Positions 46,218 to 59,173 of a stretch of DNA of 64,000 nucleotides are shown piece by piece. The translations under genes and the position numbers were made by a program. Each line of letters begins with the position of its first letter. Position 1 is the stretch's first letter. The notes beneath the pieces were generated by a model, which saw only the letters and a program-made list of their open reading frames with translations, searched no databases and had not been told where the DNA came from. The stretch is from Polaromonas sp. (lineage in GTDB: Bacteria > Pseudomonadota > Gammaproteobacteria > Burkholderiales > Burkholderiaceae_C): NCBI RefSeq assembly GCF_029945895.1, contig NZ_JAQSDL010000106.1:1-64000 (forward strand), given 5' to 3'.

Positions 46218-46886
46218 GTGAACCTGCTTGCCGAACGGCTCAATGCCGCGCTGCCGCAAACGCAGTGCACACGCTGCGGCTACCCTGACTGCTCGGCCTA
46301 CGCGCAGGCCCTGGCCGATGGCCAGGCAGGGATCAACCAGTGCCCGCCGGGCGGTGCCGAAGGCATCACGCGCCTGGCCCTGATCACCGGCCGCCCCGCC
46401 CTCCCCCTCAACCCCGACAACGGCAACGAAGGACCGCGACAGATGGCCGTGATCGACGAGGCCTGGTGCATAGGCTGCACCTTGTGCCTCGACGCCTGCC
46501 CGGTGGACGCCATCGTTGGCAGCAACAAGCAGATGCACACCGTGATCGAGTCCTGCTGCACCGGCTGCGAACTCTGCCTTCCGGTGTGCCCGGTGGACTG
46601 CATCAGCCTGGAAAACGTCACGGGTGAGCGCACCGGCTGGGCCGCCTGGTCGGAAGCCGACGCCGGGCTGGCCCGAAAACGCTATGAAATTCATAGCTAC
46701 CGGCGCTTGCTGGACGAGGGTAAAAACCAGAAAAGGCTTGAAGAAAAAGCCGAGGCCGCGCTAGCCGACCTGCCCGGGCATTCCCGACACACGGACCCTG
46801 TGGTGCTGGACCAGAAACGCGCCGTGATCGAAGCGGCACTGGCGCGCGCACGGGCCAGGCGTGAGCCGGGTAACGGTAGCGCCTAG
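46218..46886 (+). CDS. RnfB/RsxB-like ferredoxin
   Basis: This 222-residue soluble protein has an N-terminal Fe-S motif (CTRCGYPDCSAYAQAL...CPPGG). Two [4Fe-4S] motifs follow, CIGCTLCLDACPVDAI and CTGCELCLPVCPVDCI, then a charged helical tail. It lacks the membrane segment of true RnfB and no rnf genes are near. It faces the 2-oxoacid:ferredoxin oxidoreductase operon and could carry its electrons. The start is a GTG at 46218. A dispersed repeat (46681-46730) is translated near its C-terminal part (RYEIHSYRRLLDEGKNQ). Confidence 0.88.
   Translation: MNLLAERLNAALPQTQCTRCGYPDCSAYAQALADGQAGINQCPPGGAEGITRLALITGRPALPLNPDNGNEGPRQMAVIDEAWCIGCTLCLDACPVDAIVGSNKQMHTVIESCCTGCELCLPVCPVDCISLENVTGERTGWAAWSEADAGLARKRYEIHSYRRLLDEGKNQKRLEEKAEAALADLPGHSRHTDPVVLDQKRAVIEAALARARARREPGNGSA
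46681..46730 (+). repeat. Dispersed ATAGC element, copy 9 (in frame inside the ferredoxin gene)
   Basis: It starts with a perfect inverted repeat GCTATGAAATTCATAGC, then CGGCGCTTGCTGGACGAGGG and AAAAACC. It is translated in the sense direction. Confidence 0.7.
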
Positions 46887-46898
46887 TTCATTGCAGCG

Positions 46899-47339
46899 TC
46901 AGCCCAGCGCGTCATTGACCGAGTCCCGGAACTCGGCCAGGCTGACCGCGCTGTCAATCTCTCGTGGCAAGGCATCACGAATCGAGAACACCCCCAGGAT
47001 TTTTCCGGCCGACGAGACAATCGGCAAATGCCGGAAGCCGCGCTCGAGCAGGATCAGCACGGCATCCGACACCGCCAACTCGGGCACCACACACAGGGGG
47101 TTCTGCGTCATCACCTCGGACACCGGGGTTTTTTTGGCATTCAGGGCCTTGGCCAGCACACGGGTCATCAGGTCACGCTCGGTCAGGATGCCCTGCATGA
47201 CGCCGGCAACGTCAATGACCAGCACACTGCCGCAGTTGGCCTTGGTCATCAGACAGGCGGCCTGCCAGACGCTGGCCTGCGGCGGGCAACTCACCACATG
47301 CCGGTGCGGAATGGATTGAAACACGGTACGTTCAGACAT
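46899..47339 (-). CDS. CBS-domain pair protein
   Basis: This 146-residue protein consists of two CBS domains (VWQAACLMTKANCGSVLV...GILTERDLMTRVLA, and VSEVMTQNPLCVV...LGVFSIRDALPRE). It could sense adenine nucleotides. The ATG at 47339 has AGGAGG 8 bases before it; longer readings were rejected. It lies 28 bp after the beta subunit gene of the 2-oxoacid oxidoreductase and is probably in the same operon, so it may signal energy state to that enzyme. Confidence 0.87.
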   Translation of the reverse strand: MSERTVFQSIPHRHVVSCPPQASVWQAACLMTKANCGSVLVIDVAGVMQGILTERDLMTRVLAKALNAKKTPVSEVMTQNPLCVVPELAVSDAVLILLERGFRHLPIVSSAGKILGVFSIRDALPREIDSAVSLAEFRDSVNDALG

Positions 47340-47367
47340 GAGGTTCCTCCTGTCCATCGGGCATCGG

Positions 47368-48423
47368 TTAACGCAGGGATGAATTGACCTTGTCCAGCGC
47401 GCGCCCGCCCGGGCACAGCGCCGAGGCATCGAACTGGTTCAGCGGTGTAGCGCTGGTGTTCAGCGCCACATGCAGATCGGTCGCCAACTGGTCCACGTAA
47501 AGCAGCCCGGTGACAACCTCACCGCGCGCTTGGTGCGCATTCATGTAACTCAGGGCCGCGTAACGATCGGTGGGGTCGTAGTCTGCCTGCAGCTTGCGAA
47601 AGCGCAGGCTGGAGCCGTCGTGCTGCACCACCTCGATCACCTCGCCCGGCGCGTAGCTGGCGGTGATTTCCTCGCGGCCGGTGATGAAGTCGATGCGGTT
47701 GACCGACTCGTTGTGCTCGCGCACATAGTCGTAGCTCTTGGTGCTCCCCGCATGGTTGTTGAAGGCCACGCAGGGACTGATGATGTCAATGAAGGCTGCA
47801 CCGCCGTGGCCGATGGCCCCCTTGATCAGCGGCACCAGCTGGGCCTTGTCGCCCGAAAAGCCGCGCGCCACGTAGGTCGCGCCCAGCTGCAGCGCGAGGG
47901 CCACCAGATCGACCGGGCTGTCGCTGTTGACCACACCCTTCTTGCTTTTGGAGCCCTGGTCGGCTGTCGCCGAAAACTGCCCCTTGGTCAGGCCGTACAC
48001 GCCGTTGTTCTCGACCAGGTAGACCATGTTGACGCCGCGCCGCATCGCGTGGGCGAACTGGCCCAGGCCAATCGACGCAGAATCACCGTCCCCCGAGACA
48101 CCGAGGTACAGCAGGTCCCGGTTGGCCAGGTTGGCGCCGGTCAGCACCGAGGGCATGCGACCATGCACGGTATTGAAGCCATGGGAGGCACCGAGAAAAT
48201 AGTCCGGCGTCTTGGAGCTGCAGCCTATGCCCGAAAGTTTGGCGACGCGGTGCGGTGCTATGTCGAGTTCCCAGCAGGCCTGGATGATGGCCGCCGAGAT
48301 CGAGTCGTGCCCGCACCCGGCGCACAGCGTGGAAATTTTTCCCTCGTAGTCGCGCCGGGTGTAGCCGACCTTGTTGACGGTCAGCGACGGGTGGTGCAAG
48401 CGGGGCTTGGCCAGATAAGTCAT
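47368..48423 (-). CDS. korB: 2-oxoacid:ferredoxin oxidoreductase, beta subunit
   Basis: This is the TPP-binding subunit. The 351-residue protein has CAGCGHDSISAAI with cluster cysteines, SGIGCSSKTPDYF, the TPP motif GVSGDGDSASIGLGQF and VENNGVYGLTKGQFS. The PCVAFNNHAGSTKSYDY segment is the family's C-terminal part. It overlaps the alpha gene by 4 bp. Related Thauera and Azoarcus enzymes use 2-oxoglutarate, which fits the kor naming, but other 2-oxoacids are not excluded. Confidence 0.88.
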   Translation of the reverse strand: MTYLAKPRLHHPSLTVNKVGYTRRDYEGKISTLCAGCGHDSISAAIIQACWELDIAPHRVAKLSGIGCSSKTPDYFLGASHGFNTVHGRMPSVLTGANLANRDLLYLGVSGDGDSASIGLGQFAHAMRRGVNMVYLVENNGVYGLTKGQFSATADQGSKSKKGVVNSDSPVDLVALALQLGATYVARGFSGDKAQLVPLIKGAIGHGGAAFIDIISPCVAFNNHAGSTKSYDYVREHNESVNRIDFITGREEITASYAPGEVIEVVQHDGSSLRFRKLQADYDPTDRYAALSYMNAHQARGEVVTGLLYVDQLATDLHVALNTSATPLNQFDASALCPGGRALDKVNSSLR

Positions 48424-50270
48424 GTCATGTGCTCCCTGCCCTGTTCTTGAGCCTTGTCCGCCTGCGCCTTCACGTGCGCGGTGATGGCCGCGGTGATGAA
48501 ACGCGCGGTGATCGGCGTGCCGTCGTAATGCAGTACCCGCACCAGACGCGCCGGATCAACATCGAGTTCGTTGACCAGCAGGCAATGCATTTGCGCATCG
48601 CGGTTCTGCTCGACCACAAACACCCTGTCATGCCCGGCAATGAATTGCGCGACCAGGGCAGGGAAAGGAAAAGCCCGCAGCCGCAGTGCATCGATGTGGA
48701 TCCCGGCTTCGGTCAACACATCCAGCGCCTCATTCATGGACGGGCTGGTGGAGCCGAAATAGATCACGCCCAGCCGGGTCGGGCGCGCGGCGGGCCGCAG
48801 CACCGGCTGCGGCACCAGCGTGGCCGCGGTCTCGAACTTCTTCAGCAGGCGCTGCACGTTGTAGATATAGTCCGGCCCGCGCTCTGAATACTGCGCGTAG
48901 GCATTGCGTGTGGTGCCGCGCGTGAAATAACTGCCCTTGCTCGGATGTGTGCCCGGCAAGGTGCGCCACGGGATGCCGTCCCCGTCCACGTCCTTGTAGC
49001 GGCCAAAATCCTTGCCGGCTTCAAGTTCGTCCGCTGTCATGACCTTGCCGCGGTCATAGCTGCGGCTGTCGTCCCAGGCAAAGGGTTCGCACAGGCGCTG
49101 GTTCATGCCGATGTCCAGGTCGGTCATCACAAACACCGGCGTCTGCAGCCGGTCGGCCAGATCCAGCGCCGCCGCGGCGTGTTCAAAACACTCGTGCGGG
49201 TCCTCCGGCAGAAGCAGCACATGTTTGGTGTCGCCATGCGAGGCATAGGCGCAGGAGATCAGGTCGGCCTGCTGGGTGCGGGTCGGCATGCCGGTGGACG
49301 GGCCGCCGCGCTGCACGTTGATGATGGTGACCGGAATCTCGGCAAAGTAGGCCAGGCCGAGGAACTCGGTCATCAGCGACACCCCTGGCCCCGAGGTCGC
49401 GGTGAAGGCGCGTGCACCGTTCCAGCCGGCGCCCACCACCATGCCGATGGAGGCAATTTCATCTTCGGCCTGCACCACGGCGTAGTTGTGCCGGCCGGTC
49501 GCAGGGTCCACCCGGTACCTGGCGCAATAGGACTGGAAGGCTTCGGCCACCGAGGACGAGGGGGTGATGGGGTACCAGGCCGCAACGGTGGCGCCGCCAT
49601 AGACGCAGCCCAGCGCCGCGGCGCTGTTGCCATCCACAAAAATCCTGTTGCCGACCTGGTTGCTGCGCTTCACACGAATGCCCAGAGGACCCTTCAGGTG
49701 CTCGCTGGCAAAGTCCCGCCCCAGATGCAGCGCCTGCACATTCGACGCCAGCAGTTTCTCCTTGCCCTTGTACTGCTCACCGAACAGTTTTTCCAGGACC
49801 TCCGGCTCGATTTCCAGCAGCACCGACAGCGCCCCCACATACACGATGTTCTTGAAAAGCTGGCGCTGTCGCGGGTCGCTGTAAACGGCGTTGCAGATTT
49901 CCGTCAGCGGCATGCCAATGACATGAATGTCTTCGCGAAACTTTTCCGGCGGCATGGGCCGGGTACTGTCGTAAAACAGGTACCCACCGGGCTCCAGTTC
50001 GGCCACATCGGCATCCCAGGTCTGCGGATTCATCGCCACCATCATGTCAATGCCGCCACGCCGGCCCTGGTAACCCCTGTCACTCACACGCGCTTCGTAC
50101 CAGGTCGGCAAGCCCTGGATGTTGCTGGGGAAAATATTGCGCGGACTGACCGGCACCCCCATGCGCAAAATGGCCTTGGCAAACAGCTCGTTGGCCGAGG
50201 CGGAGCCGGAGCCGTTGACGTTGGCGAACTTGATTACAAAGTCGTTGACCGCTTCAATTCTTTTTTTCAT
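48420..50270 (-). CDS. korA: 2-oxoacid:ferredoxin oxidoreductase, fused gamma-alpha subunit
   Basis: The 616-residue protein fuses an N-terminal gamma domain (NGSGSASANELFAKAI, residues 15-190) to an alpha (pyrimidine-binding) domain with YPITPSSSVAEAF, QAEDEIASIGMVVGAGWNGA, TATSGPGVSLMTEFLG and RGGPSTGMPTRTQQADL. It works with the beta subunit to decarboxylate a 2-oxoacid to its CoA ester and reduce ferredoxin. It overlaps its neighbours by 4 bp on both sides. Confidence 0.9.
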   Translation of the reverse strand: MKKRIEAVNDFVIKFANVNGSGSASANELFAKAILRMGVPVSPRNIFPSNIQGLPTWYEARVSDRGYQGRRGGIDMMVAMNPQTWDADVAELEPGGYLFYDSTRPMPPEKFREDIHVIGMPLTEICNAVYSDPRQRQLFKNIVYVGALSVLLEIEPEVLEKLFGEQYKGKEKLLASNVQALHLGRDFASEHLKGPLGIRVKRSNQVGNRIFVDGNSAAALGCVYGGATVAAWYPITPSSSVAEAFQSYCARYRVDPATGRHNYAVVQAEDEIASIGMVVGAGWNGARAFTATSGPGVSLMTEFLGLAYFAEIPVTIINVQRGGPSTGMPTRTQQADLISCAYASHGDTKHVLLLPEDPHECFEHAAAALDLADRLQTPVFVMTDLDIGMNQRLCEPFAWDDSRSYDRGKVMTADELEAGKDFGRYKDVDGDGIPWRTLPGTHPSKGSYFTRGTTRNAYAQYSERGPDYIYNVQRLLKKFETAATLVPQPVLRPAARPTRLGVIYFGSTSPSMNEALDVLTEAGIHIDALRLRAFPFPALVAQFIAGHDRVFVVEQNRDAQMHCLLVNELDVDPARLVRVLHYDGTPITARFITAAITAHVKAQADKAQEQGREHMT

Positions 50271-52138
50271 GCCGGCACTCCTGTTGCGCGTGTGTCAGCC
50301 TTGTTGGCAGCGCGACAGGACGGCCCGGCCTGCGTGGTCTGCAAGAGAAATTTCTGCATGTCCCAGGCGCCGGTCGGACAGCGCTCGGCACACAGGCCGC
50401 AATGCAGGCAGACATCCTCGTCCTTGACCATCACCCGCCCGGTCTTGAGTTCGCCGGACACATAGAGGTCCTGCACCAGGTTCAGCGCCGGAGCCTTGAG
50501 CCGCGTGCGCAAATCGGCCTCTTCGCCATTGGCGGTGAAGCTGATGCAGTCCATCGGGCAGATATCGACACAGGCGTCGCATTCGATGCAGGCCGGCGCA
50601 GCGAACACCGTCTGCACATCGCAGTTCAGACAGCGCCCGGCTTCCTTGAAGGCCGTTGCGGCGTCGAAACCGAGTTCCACCTCGACACGTATGCTGGCCA
50701 GCGCAATTTCCGCCTTGGCCCAGGGCACCTTGAAACGGGCATCGTTGGAAGTGTCGTTGTCATAACTCCACTCATGAATGCCCATCTTGGTGGACATCAG
50801 GTTGGTCATCGGGTCGGGCCGGCGGTGGATGTCCTCACCGTGGAGAAAGCGGTCGATCGACACCGCTGCCTCATGGCCGTGCGCCACCGCCGTGATGATG
50901 TTTTTCGGACCGAAGGCCGAATCGCCGCCGAAAAAAACATGGGGCACGGTGGACTGGAAAGTTTCCTTGCCCAGCACCGGCAGCCCCCATTTGTCGAAGG
51001 TGACGCCGCAGTCGCGCTCTATCCAGGGAAAGGCGTTTTCCTGGCCGACGGCAATCAACACGGCGTCGCATTCCACCCGCACGTCCGGCGCGCCGGTCGG
51101 CACCAGACTGCGTTTGCCGCTGCCGTCGTAGACCGCCTGGACCACTTCAAAAGTCATGCCGGTGAGCTTGCCCTGGTCATGTTCGAAAGACTTGGGCACA
51201 TGGAAGTTGATGATGGGAATGCCTTCGTGCTGGGCGTCTTCCTTCTCCCAGGGCGACGCTTTCATTTCGTCGAAGCCGCTGCGCACAATCACCTTCACGT
51301 CGCTGCCACCCAGGCGCCGTGCCGAGCGGCAGCAATCCATGGCCGTGTTGCCGCCTCCGAGCACGATCACGCGCTGGCCGATGGATGTGATGTGGCCGAA
51401 GGACACCGAGGCCAGCCAGTCGATGCCGATGTGGATGTTCTCCTTGATATCGCTGCGGCCCGGCAGGTCCAGGTCGCGCCCGCGCGGCGCACCGCAGCCG
51501 ACAAACACCGCGTCGTAGTCCTGCGCCAGCAAGCCCTTCATGGAGGCGATGCGCTGGCCGCTGTTGAAGTTCACGCCCAGGTCCAGGATGTAGCCGGTTT
51601 CCTCGTCGATCACCGACTCGGGCAGGCGAAAGCGCGGAATCTGGGTGCGGATGAAGCCGCCGGCCTTGGCCTCGCCGTCAAAGACCGTGACTTCGTAACC
51701 GAGCGGGGCCAGGTCGCGTGCCACTGTCAGCGAGGCCGGGCCGGCACCGATGCAGGCAATACGCTTGCCGTTTCGGGGAGCGACCTCGGGCATGCGCTGG
51801 CGGACATCATTTTTCATGTCGGCGGCCACCCGCTTGAGGCGGCATATCGCCACCGGTTCCGGCTGCTCGCCATTGTTCTCCTCGACGCGGCCCCTGCGAC
51901 AGGCCGGCTCGCAGGGCCGGTCGCAGGTGCGGCCCAGAATGCCGGGAAACACATTGGACACCCAGTTGACCATGTAGGCGTCGGTGTAGCGCCCCTGGCC
52001 GATCAGGCGGATGTATTCAGGAACGGGGGTATGGGCGGGACAGGCCCATTGGCAATCGACGACCTTGTGGAAGTAGGACGGCTGGGCGACGTTGGTTGGC
52101 TGCAAAACGCTGTCTCCTTCGCCCCGCTGCAACACCAC
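50267..52138 (-). CDS. NAD(P)H:ferredoxin-type oxidoreductase subunit (GltD-like, Fe-S and FAD)
   Basis: This 623-residue multi-domain protein has an N-terminal Fe-S domain (CQWACPAHTPV, RTCDRPCEPACRRG) and an FAD fold (CIGAGPASLTVARDL). It also has an NAD(P)-binding fold (VLGGGNTAMDCCRSAR) and two C-terminal [4Fe-4S] motifs (CIECDACVDICPMDC, CLHCGLCAERCPTGA). It resembles the third subunit (KorC) of the Thauera 2-oxoglutarate oxidoreductase and would link the oxoacid enzyme to NAD(P)H. It heads the operon and overlaps korA by 4 bp. The first ATG at 52138 may be a few codons early. Confidence 0.85.
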   Translation of the reverse strand: MVLQRGEGDSVLQPTNVAQPSYFHKVVDCQWACPAHTPVPEYIRLIGQGRYTDAYMVNWVSNVFPGILGRTCDRPCEPACRRGRVEENNGEQPEPVAICRLKRVAADMKNDVRQRMPEVAPRNGKRIACIGAGPASLTVARDLAPLGYEVTVFDGEAKAGGFIRTQIPRFRLPESVIDEETGYILDLGVNFNSGQRIASMKGLLAQDYDAVFVGCGAPRGRDLDLPGRSDIKENIHIGIDWLASVSFGHITSIGQRVIVLGGGNTAMDCCRSARRLGGSDVKVIVRSGFDEMKASPWEKEDAQHEGIPIINFHVPKSFEHDQGKLTGMTFEVVQAVYDGSGKRSLVPTGAPDVRVECDAVLIAVGQENAFPWIERDCGVTFDKWGLPVLGKETFQSTVPHVFFGGDSAFGPKNIITAVAHGHEAAVSIDRFLHGEDIHRRPDPMTNLMSTKMGIHEWSYDNDTSNDARFKVPWAKAEIALASIRVEVELGFDAATAFKEAGRCLNCDVQTVFAAPACIECDACVDICPMDCISFTANGEEADLRTRLKAPALNLVQDLYVSGELKTGRVMVKDEDVCLHCGLCAERCPTGAWDMQKFLLQTTQAGPSCRAANKADTRATGVPA

Positions 52139-52231
52139 CGGGTCAGGAGGCCAGGCCAGTTTACGCCTGGCCCGGCGAACAGCGCTCTCGGGTGAATCCC
52201 TCAGTTCCTCCTCAACCCCGTGGTGCCCGCA

Positions 52232-53755
52232 TCAGCCCGCCACGAGGTTTTTATAGACACCGCAGCCCACAAACACATCGTCCACCTGCTGGACAAAAGA
52301 CATCTTGGTCTGAACCTTGCCGGTGATCGGGTGGGTGATGCCGTACTCCACCCAGCCCGGCTCGTCGCTGGCCTGGTCGATGATGGACTGGAGCAATTTC
52401 CCGCCGTCGATGCCGGGGATGTCCTGCACCCGTGTGCCGACCTTCGACGGGTTGCCGCCGAAGGCGAGGTAGCTGCCGTGGCTGTCGAGTGCAAAAACAT
52501 ACATGTCGCGGTCGTGAAACCCCCTGGCGGGCAGCGTGAGGTCGCGCAGGAAGGCCTCTTTCGACCTGTGCTGGCGGTGCGCCACGGCACGCGCCACCAG
52601 GGCCACCGCTTCTTCGGCCGACCCCTGCTGCAGCTTGAACAAGGCCACCGACTGCACCAGCGTGCCGGCCCGCGCCTCCAGGTTGACGGCCTGGCTGACC
52701 GCGCGCTCCACCATCCGGGCATTGCTCTGGGTGATCTCATCGAGCTGGTGCACGGCCGAGGTGATTTCAGTCAGGCCCGTGCTCTGCTCGGCGCTGGAGG
52801 CCGATATCTGCGACATGTTGGCCGCCACGTCGCGGATGCCCGAAACGATCTGGTTCATGTTGATGCCCGCCGCACGGATTTTTTCCGCACTGGCCGCCAC
52901 CTGGCCCGACGACACACCGATCAGCTGGCGGATTTCCCGGGCCGAGTCGGCCGAACGCTGCGCCAGCGAGTGCACCTCGCTGGCCACCACCGCAAAGCCT
53001 CGGCCCGACTCGCCGGCACGTGCCGCCTCCACGGCCGCGTTGAGCGCCAGGATGTTGGTCTGGAACGCCAGCCCGTCGATCACCCCGACGATGTCGCCCA
53101 TGCGTTTGGCGCTGCCCTGCACGGCTTCCACCGACTCGATGGCCTGCGCCATGGCCGTCGCGCCCTGGTCGGCCACATCCCGCACCTGGGCGGCCCGGGC
53201 GCTGGCCTGACCGGCCATGCCGGCATTGGCCTGAACCGTGGCCGACAGCTGTTCCACGCTGGCCGCCGTTTCCTCGAGGTTGGCCGCCTGCCGCCCGGTG
53301 CGGTCCGACAGGTCCCGGTTGCCTATGGCCATGCTTTGGCCCGAATGGGCCACAAAAGCGGCGTTGCTGCGTACATTGGCCACCATGCCGGACAGGGTGC
53401 AGCCCAACTCGCCCATGGCCTGGGCCAGCTGGCCGGCCTCGTCGGGACCGCGTCTCGCCAGGTCCAGACGCAAATCGCCGGCCACCAATTGCCGGCTCGC
53501 CAGGATCACCTGCTGCAGATCCTGCGCAAGGCTGCGGTGAAAAGCCAGCAGCAAATAAAGCAACAGCAGCAGCCCCGCACCGCCGATGGCAAGCACGCTG
53601 CCCGGGCTGCTGAAGCCGCTACTGCCCAGCAGGCGCTGCAGCGCCAGCAGCAGCAGCGGCAACGCCGCCACACACCCCAGCAGGGCCAGCTTGCCTGCCA
53701 GACGCAGCCGGCGCAGCAAGCAGGTGGCTGGATAAAGCAGCTTGCCAAATATCAT
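52232..53755 (-). CDS. Methyl-accepting chemotaxis protein with C-terminal Cache-like domain
   Basis: The 507-residue protein has two membrane helices (about 22-40 and 52-71) separated by only about 11 residues, so there is no periplasmic sensor. A HAMP-like region follows, then the signalling helices with the hairpin tip [20 protein letters not shown] (about 260-290). After residue 400 comes an extra domain ([58 protein letters not shown]), which has the pattern of a Cache/sCache domain and would lie in the cytoplasm. The ATG at 53755 has GGAGAA upstream; the 44-codon longer reading is rejected. Confidence 0.88.

Positions 53756-54484: not shown

Positions 54485-54485
<1 letters not shown>
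54012..54485 (-). CDS. VOC-superfamily protein, probable methylmalonyl-CoA epimerase
   Basis: This 157-residue vicinal-oxygen-chelate protein is annotated from context as the epimerase that turns (S)- into (R)-methylmalonyl-CoA. Possible metal ligands are His83 ([10 protein letters not shown]), Glu61 (FKVEVDL) and Glu140 (VLIELVQAP). The first metal-ligand histidine position holds Gln12 (GIQQIAIGG), as in some glyoxalase I enzymes, so a lactoylglutathione lyase is the alternative. Its ATG shares a base with the pccA stop (TGATG). Confidence 0.7.
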
Positions 54486-56525
<2,040 letters not shown>

Positions 56526-56533
<8 letters not shown>

Positions 56534-56654
56534 ATGCCTTCTCCATAGAGGTGAAATCGCCTGCACCCACTGCGTGCGTCATGCGATGTAGCTTCGCTGC
56601 TGCGCCGCTTTGCGGCTGGTCACCGCGATTCGCTGTCAGGATTTTGGTAAACAT
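56526..56654 (-). CDS. Short leader ORF copying the pccA N-terminus
   Basis: A 42-codon ORF starts MFTKILTANRGDQPQSGAAA, almost the same first 12 residues as PccA (MFEKILVANRGE). It then leaves the biotin-carboxylase pattern and ends with a TGA that overlaps the pccA start by 8 bp. GAGA lies 5-6 bases before its ATG. It may be a decayed duplicate of a biotin-carboxylase 5' end now working as a translation-coupling leader. Translation is unproven. Confidence 0.5.
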
Positions 56655-56684
56655 TTTTCTCTTTCGATCAGGGAACGCAGCGCA

Positions 56685-57644
56685 TCAGCCTTTAAGGCCT
56701 TTTTCCGCGCGTTGCTGTATGTCTTCGGTAGTCTGGTTCAGCGTGCACAAGGCCCCGATCAGCAGTGCCGAGCTGACGATGATGTGACGCTCGGGCCCCA
56801 CGCCTTCGGCTTTCAAAATTTGGGCCTGCACCCCCATGGCCTGCAGCCGGTCGGCCAGTGCGGTCTGCACCGCCCACGGGACATTTGTGTCGGCAGGATC
56901 ACCCAGCACAAAAACCCGCAAGCCCGGGTTCATGCGGGTCTTGTTCAGGTGCTCAATGGGTTCATACGAATCGGAATAACCTGTCGCATCGACCGTCCAG
57001 CCCCGCAGCTTCATGCGCATGGACGGCGAGGACACGGCCGAGGTCGGGACCGCACAAACCACGTCGGAGCGGTAACCCAGCAGCGAAGCGACCACATGGC
57101 CACCGCCACTTAATCCGGCAATCGAGATCTCTTCGATGCCATGGCGCTTCTTGATTTCATCGATCGCAGCGGACACCAGCCGCGCTTCGGGCTGGCGCCT
57201 GCGCTCCTTGTGCGAGCCGGAAGACCCGAAGGTACCCGGCCTGCCAATAAAAATATAGGGCACACCGAACCGCTGCGGCACGGTGTCGATGACTGCCTGT
57301 ACCTTGGCCGGTGTCATGCCCGCATACGTTTTATCGACCACGATGTCCTGGGCCAGGAGGTCCCCGGCGAAGAAGAACAGCGCCCTTGGGTTCGCTCCGT
57401 CCTTGAGCCCGGCGTGCCAGTAGCGCAGACATTCGCCGCGTTCTCCCTCCGGTTGCGCCCACACTGCATTCGGCACGCTTGCGCACTGCGCTGCGGTCGC
57501 CTTGACGCCGCGGACGACGGCCTCGCTGGTGAGCGCTTCCTCATGGGCAGGCATGTCCACGCGATCCAGGACGGCATGCGCGCTGCCCGTGAGAAACAGC
57601 CCCAGCAGAGCTGGTGCAAGGCGAGCCCGGCCCCGCGCGTTCAC
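56685..57644 (-). CDS. Exported alpha/beta-hydrolase inside the propionyl-CoA operon
   Basis: The 319-residue protein begins with a signal peptide ([20 protein letters not shown], cleavage near AHA/VLD). It has an esterase-like core with nucleophile motif [28 protein letters not shown] and a late His in [12 protein letters not shown]. The GTG at 57644 overlaps the pccB stop (GTGA). The substrate is unknown. Its place between pccB and pccA suggests release of a propionyl or branched precursor outside the cytoplasm, but this is only inference. Confidence 0.75.
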
Positions 57645-59173
57645 AGCGGAATGTTCCCGTGTTTGCGCCACGGGTTCTCAAGCTTCTTGTCTTTCAGCAT
57701 CACTAGCGAGCGGCAAATCCGCTTGCGGGTTTCGTGCGGCAGGATCACGTCGTCGATGAAGCCGCGCGCGCCAGCCACAAAGGGGTTGGCAAAACGCGCT
57801 TTGTACTCGGCCTCTTTCGCAGCCAGCTTGACCGGGTCTTTGCGGTCTTCGCGGAAGATGATTTCCACGGCGCCCTTGGCGCCCATCACGGCGATCTCGG
57901 CGTTGGGCCAGGCAAAGTTGACGTCGCCGCGCAGGTGTTTGGAACTCATCACGTCGTAGGCACCGCCGTAGGCCTTGCGCGTGATCACGGTGATTTTCGG
58001 TACCGTGCATTCGGCGTACGCATACAGCAGCTTGGCGCCGTGTTTGATGATGCCGCCGTACTCCTGGCTGGTGCCGGGCATGAAGCCGGGCACGTCCACG
58101 AAGGTGATCACCGGAATGTTGAAGGCATCGCAAAAACGCACGAAGCGCGCCGCCTTGATCGAGCTCTTGATGTCCAGGCAGCCGGCCAGCACCAGCGGCT
58201 GGTTGGCGACGATGCCGACGCTCTGGCCTTCCATGCGGGCGAAACCGATGATGATGTTTTTGGCGTATTCGGGCTGCAGCTCGAAGAAGTCGCCGTCGTC
58301 CACCGTCTTGGTGATCAGCTCCTTCATGTCGTAGGGCTTGTTCGGGTTCTCGGGCACCAGCGTGTCCAGGCTCAGGTCCATTCGAGCAGCCGGGTCGGCG
58401 CTCGGGCGGATAGGCGCCTTCTCTCGGTTGTTCAGGGGCAGGTAGTTGTAGAGCCGGCGCAGCATCAGGAGCGCCTCGACATCGTTTTCAAACGCCAGAT
58501 CGGCCACGCCGCTGCGGGTGGTGTGGGTGGTGGCGCCCCCCAGTTCCTCGGCCGTCACCTCTTCATGGGTCACGGTTTTCACGACCTCGGGACCGGTGAC
58601 AAACATGTAGCTGCTGTCCTTGACCATGAAGATGAAGTCGGTCATGGCCGGCGAATACACGGCACCACCAGCACAGGGGCCCATGACCATGCTGATCTGC
58701 GGCACCACGCCCGAGGCCATGACGTTGCGCTGGAAAACATCGGCATAACCACCGAGCGATGCCACGCCTTCCTGGATGCGCGCGCCGCCGGAATCGTTCA
58801 AGCCAATCACCGGTGCGCCCACCTTCATCGCCTGGTCCATCACCTTGCAGATTTTCTCGGCATGGGCCTCGCTGAGGGCGCCGCCGAACACCGTGAAGTC
58901 CTGGCTGAACACAAACACCAAGCGGCCGTTGATCATGCCGTAGCCGGTCACCACACCGTCGCCGGGGATCTTGTTGTCGGCCATGCCGAAGTCGGTGCAG
59001 CGGTGCTCGACAAACATGTCCCATTCTTCAAACGTGCCTTCGTCGAGCAGCAGCTCCAGCCGCTCACGCGCCGTGAGCTTGCCCTTGCCGTGCTGGGCAT
59101 CGATGCGTTTCTGCCCTCCGCCCAGGCGGGCAGCGGCGCGTTTTGTTTCGAGTTGTTCAAGAATGTCTTGCAT
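57641..59173 (-). CDS. pccB: Propionyl-CoA carboxylase beta subunit
   Basis: PccB transfers carboxyl from biotin to propionyl-CoA, giving (S)-methylmalonyl-CoA. The 510-residue crotonase-fold protein has [38 protein letters not shown] and [16 protein letters not shown] in the N half. The C half has [20 protein letters not shown] and [15 protein letters not shown]. It follows meaB by 21 bp. Confidence 0.95.

Follow-up and report, generated by a model that had tools for sequence, protein, structure and literature searches.

Which 2-oxoacid does the korCAB cluster of this Polaromonas genome oxidize, what receives the electrons, and do the genes beside it belong to the same system? The cluster lies in a stretch of 64,000 nucleotides (the window), where the genes concerned are arranged as follows.

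korC, 50267-52138 (-): GltD/NfnB-like FAD, NAD(P)H and Fe-S subunit with a C-terminal dicluster ferredoxin domain
korA, 48420-50270 (-): fused gamma-alpha subunit of a 2-oxoacid:acceptor oxidoreductase
korB, 47368-48423 (-): beta subunit with ThDP and one [4Fe-4S]
Two-CBS-domain gene, 46899-47339 (-): PF00571 twice; probable adenylate-binding regulator
RnfB-like soluble ferredoxin gene, 46218-46886 (+): NF005415 above cut-off; convergent with the CBS gene

A preliminary description had proposed a three-subunit 2-oxoacid oxidoreductase followed by a CBS gene, and open reading frames, Pfam domains and conserved gene order bear this out. The coordinates confirm 4-bp overlaps at both korC/korA and korA/korB, and Pfam recovers the expected GltD-like subunit (KorC: Fer4_20, Pyr_redox_2 and a C-terminal Fer4, Fer4_7), fused gamma-alpha subunit (KorA: POR for gamma, POR_N for alpha) and beta subunit (KorB: TPP_enzyme_C). 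The CBS protein has two CBS stretches, and the RnfB-like protein, encoded facing the CBS gene as described, has FeS and Fer4_21 domains. Against NCBIfam models, KorA scores over the cut-off of TIGR03710 (582.3 bits vs 482.75) and the RnfB-like protein over that of NF005415 (304 vs 281), while KorB is below that of TIGR02177 (200.7 vs 261.9) and KorC below that of NF009410 (387 vs 516). The start of korC may be a TTG near 52105, a candidate with the same Cys29 spacing in the window and in loci L037, L039, L041 and L002. Upstream of the cluster, 52232-53755 (-) encodes a chemotaxis protein with HAMP (72-116), signalling (188-342) and C-terminal Cache sensor (379-501) domains, a domain order that, with Cache last, is unusual for an MCP.

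We mapped the active site by alignment to Sulfolobus tokodaii OFOR (StOFOR) and Magnetococcus OGOR, using residues named in excerpts of PMC5020499. KorA retains the YPITP motif (233-237), Ser49, Thr326 and Arg321, the carboxylate arginine by StOFOR mapping, in 112/112 aligned rows. KorB Cys34/37/68/218, Lys71, Leu145 and Lys147 are likewise invariant (107/107 rows), the four cysteines corresponding to the cluster ligands of known structures and Lys147 to the CoA-site lysine. Residues for ThDP, the 2-oxoacid carboxylate, CoA and one [4Fe-4S] are all kept across 107-112 aligned rows, and the hallmarks of the OFOR superfamily are found on the alpha side (YPITP, carboxylate Arg, gamma domain) as well as the beta side (four cluster Cys, ThDP domain). 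Judged by its sequence, korCAB encodes a real and complete enzyme of this superfamily.

KorA orthologs (at least 69% identical) are present in 64/200 genomes of the family, about a third, three of them partial or split; G017 and G117 have distant KorA matches only. A search of 274 genomes in the class found orthologs in 21 further ones (51-77% identical), the next matches reaching at most 37%. The closest relative among the matches listed is a Polaromonas MAG (KorA 98%). Our comparison covers 112 loci, called by anchored gene calling: the window, three plasmid loci, the 80 best relatives and 28 further loci. The named relatives are the best 80 of at least 567 in a contig scan, so this set leans toward close kin. 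In 111/111 readable loci korC precedes korA on the same strand (the remaining locus ends at a contig edge), and this pairing is not chance. The flanks vary: the genes before korC form 64 clusters among 96 genes, those after korB, with CBS and RnfB set aside, form 42 clusters among 45, and, singletons left unannotated, no general partner gene besides CBS recurs across loci. On plasmid 2 of Aromatoleum EbN1 (L001, 105-10056) the kor set adjoins conjugation genes and is accompanied by two acyl-CoA dehydrogenase genes, an FAD-dependent oxidoreductase and an unannotated 130-aa frame with an electron transfer flavoprotein domain.

The facing RnfB-like ferredoxin had been put forward as a possible partner of the enzyme, a suggestion that its distribution does not support. 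RnfB-like matches at E <=1e-56 occur in 196/200 family genomes, the remaining four ranging from 1.6e-21 to 6.9e-6, and the protein scores above cut-off in 135/200, against 64/200 for kor; of the 54 kor-positive genomes (of 64) in which the two positions could be compared, 18 have the gene no more than 12 kb from kor. In ten kor-less genomes, picked from a list, phaZ adjoins the RnfB-like gene every time, with no kor or CBS match on the RnfB-phaZ stretch. Three such kor-less regions, one of them from the window's own genus (L186, genome G099; L187; L188), have glyoxalase-4 and carboxylase genes following RnfB-phaZ, preceded in L187 and L188 by the chemotaxis gene; in a further kor-less region (L194) the glyoxalase-4 gene alone was matched. 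Since the RnfB-like gene is core and keeps the same neighbours without kor, it is no private kor partner: a dedicated role is ruled out by its distribution and the kor-less regions, and we read it as a backbone gene that goes with phaZ and is a bystander to the kor unit. The backbone in L186-L188 is intact without kor; the kor unit is thus accessory, having either entered a conserved region or been lost from it.

The longest ORF of the CBS gene starts at 47429 and would overlap korB by 62 bp. Its conserved start is Met31 of that frame (M in 44/60 aligned rows, a gap in the remaining 16), which places the gene 28 bp past korB. A CBS gene comes next after korB in 59 of the 106 loci with a gene call there and in 0/21 loci from other families of the class; within the named set, the best 80 of at least 567, CBS-bearing loci are nearly all labelled Burkholderiales, with one Rhodocyclaceae MAG (L116). 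CBS domains of the adenylate type carry the motif G-h-x-(S/T)-x-x-D, and it is found in both repeats, as G80-I-(L/V)-T-E-R-D86 in the first (one H for R among 60 rows) and G146-V-F-S-x-R-D152 in the second (S in 58/60 rows). These motifs would allow adenylate sensing and make an adenylate-binding regulator the probable role of the protein. A CBS gene also precedes korC in Aromatoleum EbN1, sharing about 24% identity with that of the window.

CBS genes also occur near more distant kor sets. L175 (G027:C165, 1958-9173) contains a second CBS gene, with 68% identity to that of the window and one gene away from a korCAB set whose products are 32% (KorC), 27% (KorA) and 33% (KorB) identical to the window's, an arrangement that hints at a second CBS-kor link. 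In Ideonella sp. A 288 (L088, 7163-17913) a window-type korCAB-CBS unit is followed by one gene and then by a distant second korCAB (KorC 30%, KorA 28%, KorB 36%) with sizes resembling those of the sets in L175 and L177.

What the enzyme reduces depends on KorC. Its ten C-terminal cysteines (503, 506, 517, 520, 523, 527, 577, 580, 583 and 587) are invariant in 104/104 rows and would suffice for a dicluster domain; N-terminal cysteines of the GltD type are kept as well. The solved structures that match best are NfnA (9n5u) and a molybdopterin oxidoreductase (9bov), followed by Nfn and GltD-type subunits. A second glycine motif, GGGNTAMDC, together with R286 fits an NAD(P) site, NAD and NADP not being separable by motif. 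KorC is present in every readable locus and supplies FAD, an NAD(P)-binding fold and Fe-S centres of its own. This makes NAD(P)+ more likely than free ferredoxin as the acceptor; the clusters of KorC could equally reduce ferredoxin.

On balance, we lean toward reading korCAB as a soluble, NAD(P)-linked and lipoate-independent 2-oxoacid (probably 2-oxoglutarate) oxidoreductase that forms an accessory bypass beside 2-oxoglutarate dehydrogenase. KorAB would decarboxylate a 2-oxoacid, most likely 2-oxoglutarate, using CoA, and electrons would pass from the [4Fe-4S] of KorB to the dicluster domain and FAD of KorC and from there most likely to NAD(P)+, with NADP+ suggested by analogy with the three-subunit enzyme of Azoarcus evansii. 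The CBS protein would probably sense adenylates and tune the complex or its expression. We infer the substrate, the NAD(P)+ acceptor, the CBS function and expression in the host organism.

The coexistence of kor with the standard enzyme is seen directly. SucA was found in 69/70 kor-positive genomes searched (49/64 from the family and 21/21 others), one of these a partial match below cut-off; it is missing only in G374 (1.2 Mb, 97% complete), and 3/10 kor-negative genomes also lack it. Kor is thus not a needed replacement for SucA, and that idea is ruled out. The exception, a 1.2-Mb single-contig genome, keeps korCAB (L159, G374:C1), which may be its sole 2-oxoglutarate oxidising enzyme. The host genome itself has SucA, NarG and zwf and no match to RnfD (the sole Rnf subunit searched), BcrD or NrdD, nor NifH above cut-off; such absences are not proof, since the assembly is in 122 contigs and 95% complete. 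Marker counts across the family disposed of two other ideas: that kor makes up for NADPH shortage where zwf is lacking (zwf 55/64 kor-positive vs 100/136 kor-negative, the opposite direction) and that it serves nitrogenase (NifH 4/64 vs 7/136, no association). Anaerobic ribonucleotide reductase is not in excess (7/64 vs 23/136), and narG is in weak excess (34/64 vs 51/136, p = 0.046 uncorrected).

The same chemistry could act on another substrate, such as pyruvate, 2-oxobutyrate, a branched-chain or other 2-oxoacid, and might for example feed propionyl-CoA into the adjoining methylmalonyl-CoA genes. In StOFOR1, K49 and Asp468 are required for 2-oxoglutarate, according to excerpts of PMC5020499. 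The counterpart of K49 is the invariant KorB Lys71, which is no proof of 2-oxoglutarate because Magnetococcus OGOR has Arg there. At the position of Asp468, placed by sequence alignment within the loop, KorA has Thr453 (T 99, S 12, A 1 among 112 rows), and the substrate could therefore differ from 2-oxoglutarate; Arg455 (R 98, H 12, K 2) lies where StOFOR1 has a His in the same pocket loop. Aligned in this way, the pocket appears to be of its own kind. Propionyl-CoA carboxylase-like genes upstream of kor in the window (54485-59173, the smaller ones presumably of this kind, as labelled partly by size) and a glyoxalase-4 gene near kor in 16/81 loci (by earlier codon-model gene calls) also speak for another substrate. 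These are backbone genes, however, with the carboxylase accompanying RnfB-phaZ in 3/10 kor-less regions and glyoxalase-4 in 4/10, and many kor loci elsewhere have different flanks. We consider a different substrate unlikely; that of KorAB is probably 2-oxoglutarate.

Alternatively, KorCAB could pass low-potential electrons to a ferredoxin, RnfB-like or other, for a reductive process. The 2-oxoacid:ferredoxin oxidoreductase fold of the complex is in keeping with this, as is the closeness of RnfB to kor in some genomes (18/54). Window-type kor occurs in 10/11 genomes with BcrD above cut-off (11/200 in the family; the eleventh is G017) vs 54/189 others (p = 5.5e-5, ignoring kinship), and one BcrD genome, G100, has no other strong KorA match. 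Yet 54/64 kor-positive genomes lack BcrD above cut-off (two of them, G061 and G173, reach about 130 bits and fall short of it), and on six BcrD-bearing stretches (L166-L171) another KorAB stands next to bcr; the same KorAB kind recurs in L172, L173, L174 and L176 without a full BcrD on the stretch. The presence of the RnfB-like gene in the same setting in kor-less genomes, the lack of association with NifH and the absence of RnfD from the host genome all argue against such a role, which we find quite unlikely. Still less credible, indeed highly improbable, is electron bifurcation or confurcation by an NfnB-like KorC, yielding reduced ferredoxin and NADPH together: Nfn-type transhydrogenase subunits are among its best solved-structure matches, but the kor unit encodes one flavin-type subunit only, bifurcation is absent from many GltD-like subunits, and the oxidation of 2-oxoglutarate has a potential low enough to need none.

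When would an NAD(P)-linked bypass be used? Upstream regions of korC, readable in 84/112 loci, were scanned for FNR-type boxes, with the upstream regions of 567 other genes from these loci as controls. Boxes with at least 9/10 matches precede korC in 13/84 loci vs 20/567 controls (p = 7e-5) and perfect boxes in 5/84 vs 1/567; dinucleotide shuffles agree (14/84 in 400-base regions vs 0.6%). The boxed loci are partly related: a divergent hemerythrin-like gene is common to six of the 13, which are thus not independent. This divergent gene stands upstream of korC in nine loci (L066, L071, L081, L083, L084, L085, L093, L095 and L099), the one scanned member of its cluster showing a hemerythrin domain; in 6/9 of these loci an FNR-type box of at least 9/10 lies between it and korC. 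The best site upstream of korC in the window matches 7/10, and no box was found in Polaromonas L037, Ramlibacter L041 or Variovorax L002; control by low oxygen would thus apply to no more than part of the clade. The expectation of expression at low oxygen thus fits part of the relatives, in which the bypass would probably be switched on under such conditions, and does not extend to a box in the window itself. A promoter scan of 46700-52500 found no sigma-70-type promoter.

If the bypass reading is true, about a third of the sampled family genomes encode an alternative to a TCA step that uses a different cofactor, and metabolic models would be misled by annotations that call kor ferredoxin-dependent and link it to anaerobic aromatic degradation. 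Through the CBS link, control of a 2-oxoacid oxidoreductase by energy charge could be tested directly. More speculatively, and with considerable doubt, this widespread proteobacterial branch, whose hosts keep their normal 2-oxoglutarate dehydrogenase, might be a 2-oxoacid:NAD(P)+ bypass that is gated by CBS proteins, controlled in part by FNR and responsive to adenylate charge where oxic and anoxic zones meet, and that has recruited CBS proteins more than once. Among the literature matches listed (titles and abstract starts), none is plainly about the window's kor cluster, and a full-text search found no paper combining 'cbs domain' and '2-oxoglutarate ferredoxin oxidoreductase'. In the excerpt of PMC12684718, korD is named in a table, with no detail on this cluster.

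How does the cluster compare with known systems? The preliminary description had drawn an analogy with Thauera, where such an enzyme reduces ferredoxin for anaerobic aromatic degradation, and had called its purpose in a Comamonadaceae-type genome unclear. The host genome has no BcrD match, and therefore the Thauera role does not apply. The analogy itself, taken to mean bcr-linked KorAB, is not supported. The Thauera aromatica type likewise uses ThDP and Fe-S to oxidise 2-oxoacids and consists of gamma-alpha and beta subunits, but proxies for it from ten family loci, taken in place of Thauera's own sequence, are only 28-32% (KorA) and 37-45% (KorB) identical to the window's. Their beta subunits have 277-290 aa in nine loci and 362 aa in one gene call, against 351 aa for the window's KorB. 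Unlike the window, the bcr-type loci have no directly adjacent GltD-like gene; L168, L172 and L173 have one, with its own alpha-like gene, three genes further on. A KorA tree of 60 rows, built by a quick method that flagged long branches including the join between the two groups, splits 41 window-type from 10 bcr-type rows by a fully supported branch, placing the window's KorA outside the bcr-type clade and, on this tree, well separated from it. Excerpts of PMC2755013 state that no benzoyl-CoA reductase genes were found in Rhodoferax ferrireducens, and those of PMC9973337, which present two alternative suppliers of benzoyl-CoA reductase in Rhodopseudomonas, KorAB and AadN, do not deal with the window-type branch.

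By sequence, the solved enzymes closest to the window's are Magnetococcus OGOR (6n2n/6n2o) and OFOR1/2 of Sulfolobus tokodaii (5b46-5b48). They belong to the same family and share the catalytic residues, but were solved as two-subunit enzymes and differ in the pocket loop (Thr453/Arg455 in the window). KorC shares the FAD/NAD(P)H core of the N-terminal module of NfnB, GltD and dihydropyrimidine dehydrogenase, from which it differs by its extra C-terminal dicluster domain and by being encoded with KorAB. A closer parallel is Azoarcus evansii KGOR, reportedly a 2-oxoglutarate:NADP+ oxidoreductase of three subunits, including a GltD-like FAD/Fe-S subunit (Ebenau-Jehle 2003), with subunit sizes that reportedly match the window's. 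The same architecture, a GltD-like subunit encoded with alpha and beta, is found in all readable loci, and Aromatoleum aromaticum EbN1, a relative of Azoarcus, carries on plasmid 2 an ortholog with 66% (KorC), 69% (KorA) and 75% (KorB) identity. Two features set the window apart from the Azoarcus evansii enzyme: its genome has no BcrD match, and a CBS gene directly after korB is seen in close relatives only. On this architecture, the window's enzyme probably belongs to the same branch as the 2-oxoglutarate:NADP+ oxidoreductase of Azoarcus evansii.
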